NCBI RefSeq assembly: GCF_017571465.1
Contig: NZ_JAGETV010000002.1
Location: 1-64,000, forward strand
DNA length: 64,000 nucleotides
Direction: 5' to 3'
Origin: Thiomicrorhabdus marina
Lineage (GTDB): Bacteria; Pseudomonadota; Gammaproteobacteria; Thiomicrospirales; Thiomicrospiraceae
Each line of letters opens with the position of its first letter. The stretch's first letter is position 1. This document shows, piece after piece, positions 52,002 to 56,821 of this stretch. The notes under the pieces are model-generated. The model worked only from the letters and a program-made list of their open reading frames with translations, did not search any database and was not told the origin of the DNA. Made by a program: the position numbers and the translations under genes.

Positions 52002-52523
52002 ATGCACTTACTGAATTCATTTCTAGCAACCGCTTTAACTGCTAGCCTTGCTCTGACTTCTAGCCAAGTTTTTGCCGCGGAAGCCCCGACCGGTAAATTC
52101 CAATTAAAACCGGTTCCAGAACTACAAGATCCGCCAAGCGAACGTTTCCCAGGCGATCCGGCCGAACATAAAGCAGTATATATGTGGAACAAGCACGGCA
52201 CCGACTACCAAACCGGTATTCTGAATTCAATTCAAGCGATGATTAAGAAATACGGCGATAATGTCGAAATCGCTGTGGTCGCCATCGGCCCAGGTTTGCA
52301 CGTGCTTGCCAAAGAACCAAAGCGTGAAATAGACAAATTGATTTACGACCGCGTTAAAGGCTTTGCTGAAGATTACAACGTACGTTGGATTGCTTGCGGC
52401 AACACCATGAACACAATTCATTGGGAACATTCCGATATGCGTCCGTTTGCGGAATATTCCGAAGTTGGCGCAGCCGCTTTAATGGAATTGCAAGAAGAAG
52501 GCTTTAAGCTTCTGGTTTGGTAA
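52002..52523 (+). CDS. Secreted DsrE-like protein
   Basis: A 173-aa protein with a signal peptide (LATALTASLALTSSQVFAAE). The mature domain resembles the DsrE/DsrF sulfur-relay fold (AVYMWNKHGTDYQTGILNSIQAM ... EIAVVAIGPGLHVLAK). One cysteine, in WIACGNTMN, is at the family's usual cysteine region. Export of a DsrE-like protein suggests a role with periplasmic sulfur compounds, which would fit a sulfur oxidiser; that is inference. CGGAG precedes the ATG and a terminator follows. Confidence 0.75.
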   Translation: MHLLNSFLATALTASLALTSSQVFAAEAPTGKFQLKPVPELQDPPSERFPGDPAEHKAVYMWNKHGTDYQTGILNSIQAMIKKYGDNVEIAVVAIGPGLHVLAKEPKREIDKLIYDRVKGFAEDYNVRWIACGNTMNTIHWEHSDMRPFAEYSEVGAAALMELQEEGFKLLVW

Positions 52524-52593: not shown

Positions 52594-53424
52594 CTACTTC
52601 TTTTCTGACTGCATTGCCACTAACTGGTCAATCTTGGCGTGCAAGGATTGCACTTCATCTTGCATACGTTTTTCAAACGACTCGTGCTCCTCCAATGTCA
52701 GCCCCATTTTTTCCGCTTCCATCTTCTTGTGCTCGTCGGCTAGAACATCGACCACAATACCGATCATCATATTCAAAAATACAAACGCCGAGAAGAAGAT
52801 AAAGGTAATGTAATAAATCCAACTCAGACTATAAACCGCCATAGTTTCATACATAACATCTGTCCAGTCTTCAAAAGTAGCGACGCGGAATAAAGTCAGC
52901 AGAGAAATCCCTAAATCGCCCCACAATACTGGGTTGATATGTGCGAACAGCAGATTACCAATGACGGCATACAGATAGAAAATAATAAACATCAACAGCG
53001 CTACATAGCCCATTCGCGGCATCGCCGTAATCAATGCAGTAACCAAAACGCGTAATTCCGGGATGAATGAAATCAAACGCATGACACGGAACAATCGCAG
53101 CATACGCGCAATCAAGGCGTATTCGGACGACTCCAACGGAATCAAACTGATGACCACAATGGTAAAGTCGAAAACATTCCAACCTTTCTTAAAGAAATCA
53201 CGAAAACGGTCTTCCGCCGCCATACGAATCATGATTTCCACTAAAAAGAAAATGGTTACCGCATAATCCAGAAAATACAGGGATGATTCAAACCATGGAT
53301 TTAGGTCATAGGTTCGCACCCCAATCATGAGTGATGAAAATACGATAACGGTAATGACAAACATCTCGAACAGTTTGTTATCGCGCACTTTTTGGAAACG
53401 TTGCTGAAAATCACACCACGTCAT
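52594..53424 (-). CDS. Bacterial voltage-gated cation channel (BacNav/BacCav type)
   Basis: A 276-aa single-domain six-helix channel that forms tetramers in the inner membrane. S4 carries R107, R110, R113 and R116 in RxxRxxRxxR spacing; S2 and S3 contain acidic partners (E63, D86). The pore loop reads TLFRVATFEDWTDVM, filter T183-F-E-D-W-T-D189. Compared with the NavAb filter TLESWSM there are extra aspartates at two positions, like the engineered calcium-selective CavAb (TLDDWSD). S6 is FSAFVFLNMMIGIVVDVLAD, and the C-terminus forms a coiled coil (HESFEKRMQDEVQSLHAKIDQL). Single gene. Confidence 0.9.
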   Translation of the reverse strand: MTWCDFQQRFQKVRDNKLFEMFVITVIVFSSLMIGVRTYDLNPWFESSLYFLDYAVTIFFLVEIMIRMAAEDRFRDFFKKGWNVFDFTIVVISLIPLESSEYALIARMLRLFRVMRLISFIPELRVLVTALITAMPRMGYVALLMFIIFYLYAVIGNLLFAHINPVLWGDLGISLLTLFRVATFEDWTDVMYETMAVYSLSWIYYITFIFFSAFVFLNMMIGIVVDVLADEHKKMEAEKMGLTLEEHESFEKRMQDEVQSLHAKIDQLVAMQSEKK

Positions 53425-53553: not shown

Positions 53554-53805
53554 ATGGCTAAGATTACGGTAATCGGACAAGGCGACTGCGAATTTGACGG
53601 ACAATTTTCCATGTTGGAAGCACTTGATGAAAGCGGCTTTGATATGCCTTACAGCTGCCGAGGCGGTAACTGTGGCGCGTGTGCAGTGAAATTGATTTCC
53701 GGCCAAGTAGAAGAGATTCAAACCCCAATCTACGAACCGAATGACGATGAAATCTTAACCTGTAGCTGTATTCCGGTTAGCGATGTGGTGATTGAAATTC
53801 CTTAA
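53554..53805 (+). CDS. [2Fe-2S] ferredoxin, plant type
   Basis: An 83-aa ferredoxin. The cluster cysteines are in SCRGGNCGACAVKL (CxxxxCxxC) and the fourth in EILTCSC. It carries electrons in the cytoplasm; the partner enzyme is not evident from neighbours. AGGAA precedes the ATG at 53554 and its own hairpin follows at 53824-53848. Confidence 0.92.
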   Translation: MAKITVIGQGDCEFDGQFSMLEALDESGFDMPYSCRGGNCGACAVKLISGQVEEIQTPIYEPNDDEILTCSCIPVSDVVIEIP

Positions 53806-53931: not shown

Positions 53932-54894
53932 TTATTTGATTTTAGCTAGTTGGTCTTCTAGAACTTTCTTAGGTAGCGGAATGTAACCGTCTTTCGCTAC
54001 GTCTTCTTGACCTTTCTTAGAAAGAACTAGTTTCAAGAATTCACCTACAACTGGCTCGATCGCTTTGTTAGGCGCTTTGTTTACGTAAACGTAAAGTAGA
54101 CGAGATAGTGGGTAAGTACCGTTTACAGCGTTCTCTGGCGTTGCAGCAACGAAAGGCTTACCGTCTTTCTTAGCTAGAGGAACCGCTTTAACACCCGCAG
54201 TTTTGTAACCGATACCTGAGTAACCGATACCGTTCATTGACGCTGAAACAGACTGTACTACAGACGCTGAACCAGGTTGTTCGTTAACTGAAGATTTGTA
54301 GTCACCTTTACAAAGTGCTTTTTTCTTGTAGTAACCGTAAGTACCAGATACTGAGTTACGACCGTAAAGCTGGATAGTCTTGTCAGCTAGCTCACCAGAA
54401 ACACCTGCTTGACCCCAGTTAGCGATATCGTCTTTTGCACCACATTTACGAGTTGAAGAGAAGATCGCGTCAACTTGTGGAATAGTCAAACCTTCGATTG
54501 GGTTATCTTTGTGAACGTAAACCGCTAGCGCATCGATTGCTACTGCGATAGGAGTCGGCTTATAACCGTGCTTTTTCTCGAACATAGCGATTTCTTTGTC
54601 TTTCATTTTACGGCTCATAGGACCGATGTTTGAAGTAGACTCAGTTAGCGCTGGAGGTGCAGTAGAAGAACCCGCCGCTTGAATTTGGATGTTTACGTTA
54701 GGGTAAGTACGCTTGAACTCTTCTGCCCAAAGGGTCATTAGGTTAGCAAGAGTGTCAGAACCTACAGAAGAAAGGTTACCTGAAACACCAGAAACTTTCT
54801 CATAAACAGGAAGATCAGCAGTTGCGTGAGCGTTTACAGGTGCAAAAGAAGCAGCTGCGATTCCCATCGCTAGAATAAGACCAGATTTTTTCAT
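53932..54894 (-). CDS. pstS: Phosphate-binding periplasmic protein PstS
   Basis: A 320-aa PstS with a signal peptide ([24 protein letters not shown]). Phosphate-contact segments are [24 protein letters not shown] and [14 protein letters not shown]. It delivers phosphate to the PstCAB importer, which is not encoded here: a strong terminator follows the gene at once. The start at 54894 is chosen for the signal peptide and a GGAG upstream; the in-frame extension to 55014 runs through the Pho box. Expected to be induced by PhoB under phosphate limitation. Confidence 0.95.
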
Positions 54895-55246
54895 TGGGGG
54901 TGACTCCAAAATTTGAAATTTAAAAATTAGGTTATTTGTTATTTTGTGACGCTGATTATAGGTAGGCTCTATAAAACCCTTTTTACACAAAAATGACATT
55001 AATATGACACGCACACCTACTTCATAAGGTTTTTCGATGGGGCTTTATAAGCGCTGATTGTTCAAAATGAGTAAGTTCATGCGTTTTCGCGATACCTAAA
55101 CCACAAAAGCTATCGTAAAAGCGCTTTAAATAAGTGAGCAAACTTAAGTACCTTGTCAGAAAACTGTAATATTCATCCTAACCAGCAGCAAAATTCTATA
55201 AAATTGCATCGAGATTTTTCCTAACAAAAAGAAAGATGAGAGAGTT
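54895..55246. other. Regulatory spacer between pstS and pitA
   Basis: About 350 bp without a gene. It holds the Pho box and promoter of pstS on the - strand (see 54993-55009, with TATAAT-like words at 54955-54960 and 54968-54973). The part nearer pitA is AT-rich and must hold the pitA promoter, but no clear one is visible. Confidence 0.6.
54993..55009 (-). promoter_or_regulatory. Pho box upstream of pstS
   Basis: On the - strand TGTCAT ATTAA TGTCAT gives two direct repeats at 11-bp spacing, which matches the PhoB-binding consensus (CTGTCAT, 4-bp spacer, CTGTCAT). It lies about 100 bp upstream of the pstS ATG. Confidence 0.8.
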
Positions 55247-56821
55247 ATGGAGTTTCGTGATATCAACGAACTAGAGAACGCCACATCAAAAAGTCGTAAA
55301 GAGATGTTCCGCTTCGGAACCGCGCTACTTTTTATTGTGATGATTATTCTCTTCACCGCTAACATCCAGACCGGTACCGGAACAGTCAGCGTTGAACTAG
55401 TAATCGCCGCCATGATTGGTGGCTATATGGCCCTGAACATCGGTGCCAATGACGTTGCCAATAACGTCGGCCCTGCGGTTGGCTCCGCAGCCCTAACCCT
55501 AACCGGCGCCATTATTATTGCCGCGATTTTCGAATCGGCCGGTGCACTTATCGCCGGCGGTGATGTAGTCAGTACCATTAAGAAAGGGATTATCGACCCC
55601 GCTCTCATCGGCGATGCTGACACCTTTATCTGGTTAATGATGGCCGCTCTGCTAGCCGGTGCCATCTGGCTAAATATCGCCACCGCAATGGGCGCGCCGG
55701 TTTCCACTACTCACTCGATTGTCGGTGGTGTACTCGGTGCAGGCATTGCTGCAGCCGGTTGGGGAATCGCCAACTGGAACACCATGGGCGCGATTGCGGC
55801 CAGCTGGATTATCTCGCCGGTTATCGGTGGGATAATTGCAGCCAGTTTTCTGATGTGGATAAAAAAATCGATAACCTATCAGGACGATATGCTCGCCGCA
55901 GCCAAAAAAATGGTGCCGCTGCTGATTGCAATCATGGCATGGGCTTTCTCGACTTACTTAATTCTAAAAGGACTTAAGAAAGTCTGGAAAGTCGATTTTA
56001 TAAGTGCCTTACTAATTGGTCTAGCGATGGCCACAGCGGTGTACCTTATCGTTAAACCAATGGTTGCCCGTCAAGCGGCGCGTTTAGAAAACACGAAGGC
56101 AAGCGTGAATACCTTATTCACCATGCCATTGATTTTCGCGGCGGCCCTACTGAGTTTCGCGCACGGTGCCAATGACGTAGCTAACGCAGTTGGCCCTCTA
56201 GCGGCAATCAATGAAGCCCTTCAAAGCCACGAAGTCACGACTAAAGCAGAAATCCCGCTATGGATTATGGTGATTGGTGCGGTAGGTATTTCTATCGGTC
56301 TGATGTTATTTGGTCCAAAGTTAATTCGTACCGTCGGTTCGGAAATCACCGAACTTGACCAAATGCGTGCTTTCACGATTGCGATGGCCGCAGCTATCAC
56401 CGTTATCGTTGCTTCACAACTTGGCCTACCGGTTAGCTCGACACATATCGCGGTCGGTGCAATCTTCGGTGTCGGCTTCTTGCGTGAATACCTGAAGCGT
56501 AGTTATGCGAAAGCGGTTCAAGAAATCAAAGACCACCACCAAGGCGAAGACGAAGAAGAGGTCAATGAATTCATTAACCAATTCTCGAAAGCGAATGTGG
56601 CGCAGAAAAAAATCATGCTGGCACAATTGAAAGCGAAAAAAGCGACGGTTGAGTTAAGCAAGAAAGAGCGTAAGTCTCTAAACCGAGTCTATCAGAAAGA
56701 GCTTGTTAAACGCTCTGCCTTCTTGAAAATTGTCGCCGCATGGGTCATAACAGTGCCGGCTTCGGCAACCCTTGCAGCCCTACTGTTTTTCACTATCCGT
56801 GGCATGATGATTCCCGGCTAA
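55247..56821 (+). CDS. Low-affinity inorganic phosphate transporter (PiT family)
   Basis: A 524-aa polytopic permease. The two PiT signature repeats are GANDVANNVGPAVG near 67 and GANDVANAVGPLA near 307, each at the start of a half-domain; AMGAPVSTTHSIVGG and GLPVSSTHIAVGA are the paired second motifs. Moves phosphate as a metal-phosphate complex with protons. A soluble charged segment (~430-490) precedes the last helix. It is divergent from pstS. Purine-rich GAGAG precedes the ATG. Confidence 0.93.
   Translation: MEFRDINELENATSKSRKEMFRFGTALLFIVMIILFTANIQTGTGTVSVELVIAAMIGGYMALNIGANDVANNVGPAVGSAALTLTGAIIIAAIFESAGALIAGGDVVSTIKKGIIDPALIGDADTFIWLMMAALLAGAIWLNIATAMGAPVSTTHSIVGGVLGAGIAAAGWGIANWNTMGAIAASWIISPVIGGIIAASFLMWIKKSITYQDDMLAAAKKMVPLLIAIMAWAFSTYLILKGLKKVWKVDFISALLIGLAMATAVYLIVKPMVARQAARLENTKASVNTLFTMPLIFAAALLSFAHGANDVANAVGPLAAINEALQSHEVTTKAEIPLWIMVIGAVGISIGLMLFGPKLIRTVGSEITELDQMRAFTIAMAAAITVIVASQLGLPVSSTHIAVGAIFGVGFLREYLKRSYAKAVQEIKDHHQGEDEEEVNEFINQFSKANVAQKKIMLAQLKAKKATVELSKKERKSLNRVYQKELVKRSAFLKIVAAWVITVPASATLAALLFFTIRGMMIPG

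Follow-up and report, generated by a model that had tools for sequence, protein, structure and literature searches.

How a pore chooses calcium over sodium is an old question, and the rule that more acids mean more calcium has already been broken by NavPp, the channel of Plesiocystis pacifica. The window analysed here, a 64,000-nucleotide stretch of the Thiomicrorhabdus marina genome, encodes a subunit of a voltage-gated cation channel whose selectivity filter reads TFEDWTD, and the locus raises the question of whether such a filter makes a native calcium channel. An earlier note, made from the sequence alone, had proposed a natural calcium or mixed-cation channel and had located the filter, with E185, D186 and D189 as its acids, within 52840-52900. 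The location and the residues are correct (Table 1); the functional proposal stands in part, as set out below.

The channel gene stands alone, flanked by one divergent and one convergent gene. Its product matches the Pfam domain Ion_trans (PF00520) over residues 17-234 (E = 1.7e-45; 155.6 bits against a cut-off of 25) and is a member of the voltage-gated ion transport superfamily. Arginines R107, R110, R113 and R116 occupy every third residue of S4 and are invariant in 44 aligned rows, a sequence pattern by which the protein is classed as a voltage-gated channel. An AlphaFold2 model (mean pLDDT 89.5, pTM 0.67) has the BacNav fold, with S1-S6 supported by sequence and model alike, and its long C-terminal helix is, by analogy with BacNav structures, a probable coiled-coil tail. 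A Foldseek search with this model placed NavMs, NavRh and CavAb within the first four matches, NavRh being second, while a second structure aligner put NavAb, CavAb, NaChBac and NavMs all at VIA Z 16.4 to 17.5, with NavRh absent among the 50 matches listed. At a model pTM of 0.67, the structure comparison did not discriminate between NavAb, CavAb and NaChBac as the nearest. The other Ion_trans match in the genome (L002:1111-2133) is a K+ channel with the filter TTVGYGD.

Table 1. Positions in the window of the channel gene, its functional elements and its immediate neighbours.
Feature	Coordinates	Strand	Basis or remark
Voltage-gated cation channel subunit gene	52594..53424	-	ORF and translation; 276 aa plus stop
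S4 region, residues 102-124	53053..53121	-	Helix named S4 by homology
Selectivity filter TFEDWTD, residues 183-189	52858..52878	-	Translation
E185 codon GAA, filter position 3	52870..52872	-	Codon listing; high-field-strength site by homology
D186 codon GAC, filter position 4	52867..52869	-	Codon listing; "beacon" position of PMC10120453
D189 codon GAT, filter position 7	52858..52860	-	Codon listing; outer ring by homology
Long C-terminal helix, residues 244-275	52600..52695	-	DSSP on AF2 model
Divergent neighbour, 2Fe-2S ferredoxin	53554..53805	+	PF00111; family in 13/81 sets, window included
Convergent neighbour, DsrE/DsrF-like protein	52002..52523	+	PF02635; family in 10/81 sets, window included

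Gene neighbourhoods were compared across 81 sets (80 loci and the window). Further neighbours in the window are a BolA protein and, at 53932-56821, a phosphate-type binding protein with a PHO4 transporter. A function linked through an operon was rejected, as no neighbour family is present in more than 13 of the 81 sets, which are those of close relatives (L050-L062) and the window itself. Three families that seemed commoner (58, 50 and 20 sets) lie, by their coordinates, over the channel gene itself in different reading frames, and halomonad loci have a neighbour family of their own (13 sets). A promoter scan gave no sites on the minus strand and one on the plus strand, below the counts for shuffled sequence.

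The filter is strongly conserved. A family search of 62 genomes gave matches in 47, at 48 places, comprising 40 orthologues (64-100% identity, the window gene included), seven paralogues (34-36%) and one match at 26%. TFEDWTD is present in 39 of the 40 orthologues, counting the window gene, and is thus not a chance motif; the exception, L022, belongs to the window's own genus and has TFESWTS. Searching those genomes with a codon-level pattern gave 41 places, of which 39 read EDWTD, one read ESWTS and one was an unrelated match on another contig of the window's own genome; at the window filter the pattern match spans 52849-52872, beginning at E185. In the 44-row alignment, which holds the window protein and 43 of 70 listed proteins but not L022, T183, E185, D186, W187, T188 and D189 are invariant and position 2 nearly so. 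NavAb-like channels with TFESWSM or TLESWSM were also seen in seven genomes of the family (L043-L049), and only one of these, G059, has the TFEDWTD type as well.

The likeness to engineered CavAb drawn in the earlier note holds for the acids at positions 3, 4 and 7 but not for the identity of the first, which is Asp in CavAb (TLDDWSD) and Glu here. Among engineered filters the counterpart of TFEDWTD is thus TLEDWSD, and among native ones it is TLEDWTD of NavPp.

The scaffold also sets this protein apart from NavAb. In sequence searches, NavRh (PDB 4dxw) was the top single-domain solved relative, with 220 bits and 45% identity, followed by NaChBac (160 bits) and NavMs (153 bits). Human T-type calcium channels reach totals of up to 268 bits, which exceed the NavRh score because several aligned stretches are summed; the best single stretch, of 9ayg, scores only 81.8 bits. 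From 267 loci we obtained 248 distinct homologues, only the K+ channel locus yielding no sequence, and 155 of them entered a tree from which the filter columns were removed. In this quick tree with long branches, one branch with an SH-aLRT of 99 separates 122 rows on the EDWTD side from 33 NavAb-like or other-motif rows. L166, the NavRh-like row, groups with the EDWTD side, although its branch is long and its position unsure.

Spacing within the pore follows the same division. The spacing between the filter Trp and the conserved Trp that follows it is 15 residues in 170/170 TFEDWTD rows, 26/26 TLEDWTD rows and L166, compared with 16 in 24/24 TLESWSM and 6/6 TFESWSM rows, so the turn after D189 is shorter than that after M181 of NavAb. 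This difference may matter when results from engineered NavAb are transferred to the window channel. With its TFEDWTD filter, a spacing of 15 and a place across the SH-aLRT 99 branch, the protein is ruled out as a canonical NavAb-like BacNav. Like the ancestor-like AnclNav channels described in PMC7041947, it branches apart from the NavAb-like channels and has an acid-rich filter of the TLEDW kind; with the NavRh group it shares the nearest solved homologue and an equal pore length; and it has Asp at position 4, where CavMr-type channels have Gly. Judged by these sequence features, the window channel is of the AnclNav/NavRh type, on a scaffold distinct from that of NavAb-like channels.

Relatives of this kind are common. 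Matches at 1e-80 or better occurred in 39 of 369 genomes sampled across the class, the window's own included. A scan of named genomes, in which the best 80 of 492 relatives were examined, gave hosts including Hydrogenovibrio, Thiomicrorhabdus, Vibrio, Halomonas, Marinobacterium, Zobellella and Methyloceanibacter; among these best 80 there was no member from the genera of CavMr or NavPp. By these matches, the channel type is recurrent across proteobacteria and not a lone curiosity. The Halomonas elongata AnclNav of PMC7041947 is probably an orthologue of the Halomonas rows in our set. Three orthologues carry one in-frame stop each (L155 of G436, G506:C35:61824-62633 and G764:C1:1455695-1456435), possibly reflecting decay or sequencing error.

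What such a filter passes can be judged from characterised channels. The filter of NavPp equals a predicted ancestral BacNav filter, and channels of this kind were grouped as AnclNav; NavPp itself has a PCa/PNa of 0.308 and is blocked by extracellular calcium, a block that persists in mutants with engineered-Cav filters such as TLEDWSD, according to PMC7041947. Because a near-identical filter prefers sodium and is calcium-blocked, the filter alone does not make a calcium channel, and reading calcium selectivity from the count of acids is unsafe. The same source reports that CavMr given TLEDWTD has a PCa/PNa of 13.8, and that the calcium determinant in CavMr and NavPp is Gly at position 4, where Asp reduces selectivity. 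The scaffold therefore matters, since TLEDWTD gives 0.31 in NavPp and 13.8 in CavMr. Of the earlier proposal, the mixed-cation part is fair, whereas arguing from three acids to calcium selectivity is insecure, in view of NavPp and of a scaffold that is not that of NavAb. A case for a calcium channel can be made, but it is weaker than the note put it, since a native channel with almost this filter prefers sodium.

The reading we favour, which we hold to be probable though far from certain, is a homotetrameric voltage-gated channel of the AnclNav/NavRh type that is opened by depolarisation, passes sodium and some calcium, and is blocked by millimolar calcium. One gene product would form one subunit of the homotetramer, and depolarisation would open the predicted channel. 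Twelve filter carboxylates in three rings (E185, D186 and D189) would form a strong binding site for calcium at the mouth of the pore. Sodium would permeate and calcium partly so; sodium currents would be slowed or blocked by millimolar calcium, an effect measured in NavPp and reported for NavRh, in which periplasmic calcium blocks sodium flux (PMC4444806). D186 and D189 may work jointly, as a unit governing the behaviour of the pore towards divalent ions. Phe is found at position 2 of some BacNavs and AnclNavs, and F184 is not expected to add calcium block, because the L176F change in NavAb gives none, as described in PMC10349818. Several points count against this reading: our literature search found no measured current for any TFEDWTD channel; CavMr kept 13.8 with TLEDWTD, so that another scaffold could prefer calcium; and two channels with NavPp-like filters, from Halomonas elongata and Teredinibacter turnerae, gave undetectable current in PMC7041947.

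A further point concerns the two aspartates, which vary together. After further loci were added, the set held 319 distinct proteins. We defined the EDWTD clade as the 277 proteins longer than 180 aa with a filter other than ten listed motifs; the ten-motif rows that entered the 155-row tree all lie on the opposite, non-EDWTD side. Removing redundancy at 85% identity, separately for every filter type, left 168 clade members, of which 149 have both equivalents of D186 and D189, 19 have neither and none has a single one. A single Asp was found in five of the 319 proteins, none of them in the clade and all from the NavAb-like side (TMEGWPD in two, TLEGWPD, TSEGWPD and TFDDWSN), so the both-or-neither rule is limited to the clade and does not extend to all BacNavs. 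Change counts at positions 4 and 7 are equal automatically, because no clade row is mixed, and this equality is no evidence. The motifs TLESWSG and TFESWTA in alignment columns are artefacts of an extra residue; raw motifs were used for the counts.

When the filter columns were left out of the tree, parsimony counted nine switches, falling to seven without five long rows and to four when the ESWAT group was also left out; S1-S5 alone gave seven (quick and FastTree trees). These counts point to at least four separate switches in the clade, with their direction read from nesting in quick trees. Four are plain double substitutions: L022 in the window's genus, a clade of family f26, L262 in family f40 and genus g499 in family f3, one member of g499 having ESWTA. 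Serine codons are AGC/AGC in L022, TCA/TCC in L171 (f26) and AGC/TCG in L262.

Locus sampling favoured filter variants. DNA patterns were also run family by family; they demand Glu, Trp and Met-Tyr next to the two sites, with Thr at position 6 in four of the five, and miss other motifs. EDWTD accounted for 23 of 23 places in f11 (151 genomes) and for 36 of 37 in f40 (74 genomes), the other being ESWTS; f26 (146 genomes) had 10 EDWTD and 46 ESWTS among 56 places, read by eye. Among the 150 matches listed for f3 (196 genomes) were 100 EDWTD, four ESWTS, one ESWTA and 45 other strings that look like chance matches of a looser pattern. Three loci fetched from odd pattern matches (L339, L341 and L351) were not channels. 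The EDWTD members of genus g51 placed in the tree (L298-L301) lie away from the f26 ESWTS ones, suggesting that the g51 EDWTD channels were separately acquired.

The two positions are the same two whose change in NaChBac turns sodium into calcium selectivity: with both serines replaced by Asp, selectivity for calcium is complete, and single changes achieve less (PMC7764494, citing Yue 2002). Single changes are not always poor, however, as TLEDWSM alone raised calcium over sodium permeability 100-fold in NavAb according to PMC10120453. We found no earlier account of both-or-neither aspartates in the literature searched, and this may be the part that a specialist finds new. The pairing suggests functionally different filter states, for which a plain sodium channel would have no use, and this too counts against our favoured reading.

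In one halomonad group, the filter appears to have changed by another route. L147 and L326, both of family f11 (probably Halomonadaceae), share 207/214 aa outside the pore segment and 26/41 inside it; at the DNA level the figures are 566/642 and 82/123 (Fisher p 2.9e-8, an optimistic value because the segment limits were set after viewing the profile). Within the segment L147 matches L151 at 41/42 aa and L153 at 39/42, and it looks as if recombination brought a NaChBac-like TFESWAT filter, with an extra residue, into L147. Compared with L326, both L147:1498-2385 and L150:1414-2301 have the pore segment swapped between otherwise near-identical channels. L144, also of f11, and L121 of Vreelandella aquamarina agree at 91% identity across 3.8 kb. 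Two loci of f26, a family that had at first resembled Vibrionaceae, had no near match among the named loci.

Other arrangements of channel genes were seen in passing. Adjacent pairs of single-domain channel genes occur in three genomes of two families (L193:223-2043, L198:405-2108 and L216:394-2202), with TMEGWPD or TSEGWPD filters beside TTEGWPT or TTEGWPS; G095 C62 has a similar pair by coordinates. These pairs are possible heteromeric bacterial channels. Two further contigs each carry one TFEDWTD and one TLEDWTD channel, about 2.2 kb apart in L066 (4986-5834 and 8046-9080) and about 2.4 kb apart in L069 (4986-5834 and 8265-9083).

Beside our favoured reading, the paired aspartates allow a broader one, which we regard as speculative and rather doubtful: EDWTD and ESWTS would be two selectivity states, with EDWTD channels serving native calcium entry or mixed, calcium-regulated entry. 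Several lineages, including most matching genomes of the large genus g51 and the sibling in the window's genus, would have switched to sodium through both Asp, with single-Asp intermediates selected against, and one halomonad group would have come to a comparable state by exchange of the pore cassette.

It is unlikely that the window channel is a native calcium-selective channel (BacCav), with an acid-rich filter that keeps sodium out and lets calcium in on depolarisation. Calcium-selective mutants of NavAb (TLEDWSD) and NaChBac (TLEDWAD), cited in PMC7041947, lend this idea weight, together with the NaChBac double mutant, the presence of both Asp or neither in clade members, and the report in PMC10120453 that the beacon Asp accompanies calcium selectivity or calcium block. 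NavPp, however, differs at one filter residue and prefers sodium, and the window channel has Asp in place of the Gly that determines calcium selectivity in CavMr and NavPp.

Distinctly improbable is an ordinary BacNav-type sodium channel whose extra acids leave calcium handling unchanged. Several of the hosts named above belong to marine or halophilic genera, and this speaks in its favour. So does the sodium preference of NavPp, but that channel, with its near-identical filter, is also calcium-blocked and partly calcium-permeable (PMC7041947), and the recurrent double changes to ESWTS speak against equivalence of the two filters. A channel that does not conduct in vivo, as the two currentless gammaproteobacterial AnclNavs might suggest, or a decayed gene is very improbable, the ORF being intact, inner stops occurring in 0/40 family orthologue places, and the filter and S4 arginines being invariant in 44 rows.

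Natural channel pairs offer a direct test of whether two aspartates set the chosen ion: the window gene and L022, from the same genus, differ at two key filter positions, and L326 and L147, again from one genus, have the pore cassette as their main difference. Should EDWTD channels pass calcium, many proteobacteria would have voltage-linked calcium entry, compared with the one hot-spring species known; CavMr is described as the sole prokaryotic Cav identified as of 2026 (PMC12919392).

Among known systems, NavPp, an AnclNav compared by filter only, has the same three acids per subunit and differs at position 2, which is Leu in NavPp and Phe in the window channel. NavRh shares 45% identity, an equal length from filter to P2 (row L166) and, if our favoured reading holds, calcium block (PMC4444806), but its filter, TLSSWET, lacks the E-D-D acids. 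CavMr of Meiothermus ruber, also compared by filter only, is a native AnclNav with E3 and D7 in TLEGWVD, whereas its position 4 is the Gly measured as the calcium determinant (PMC7041947). Engineered CavAb (PDB 4ms2, 5klb) is alike in overall fold and in the acids at 3, 4 and 7; it differs in having Asp rather than Glu at position 3 and a NavAb-like scaffold with an additional residue following the filter, at 28-34% identity. Canonical NavAb-like BacNavs, represented in the window's family by the 34-36% identical paralogues, share the six-helix voltage-gated subunit but carry T[LF]ESWSM filters and lie on the opposite side of the tree. Set beside these, the window channel is a newly found member of an already known kind of channel.
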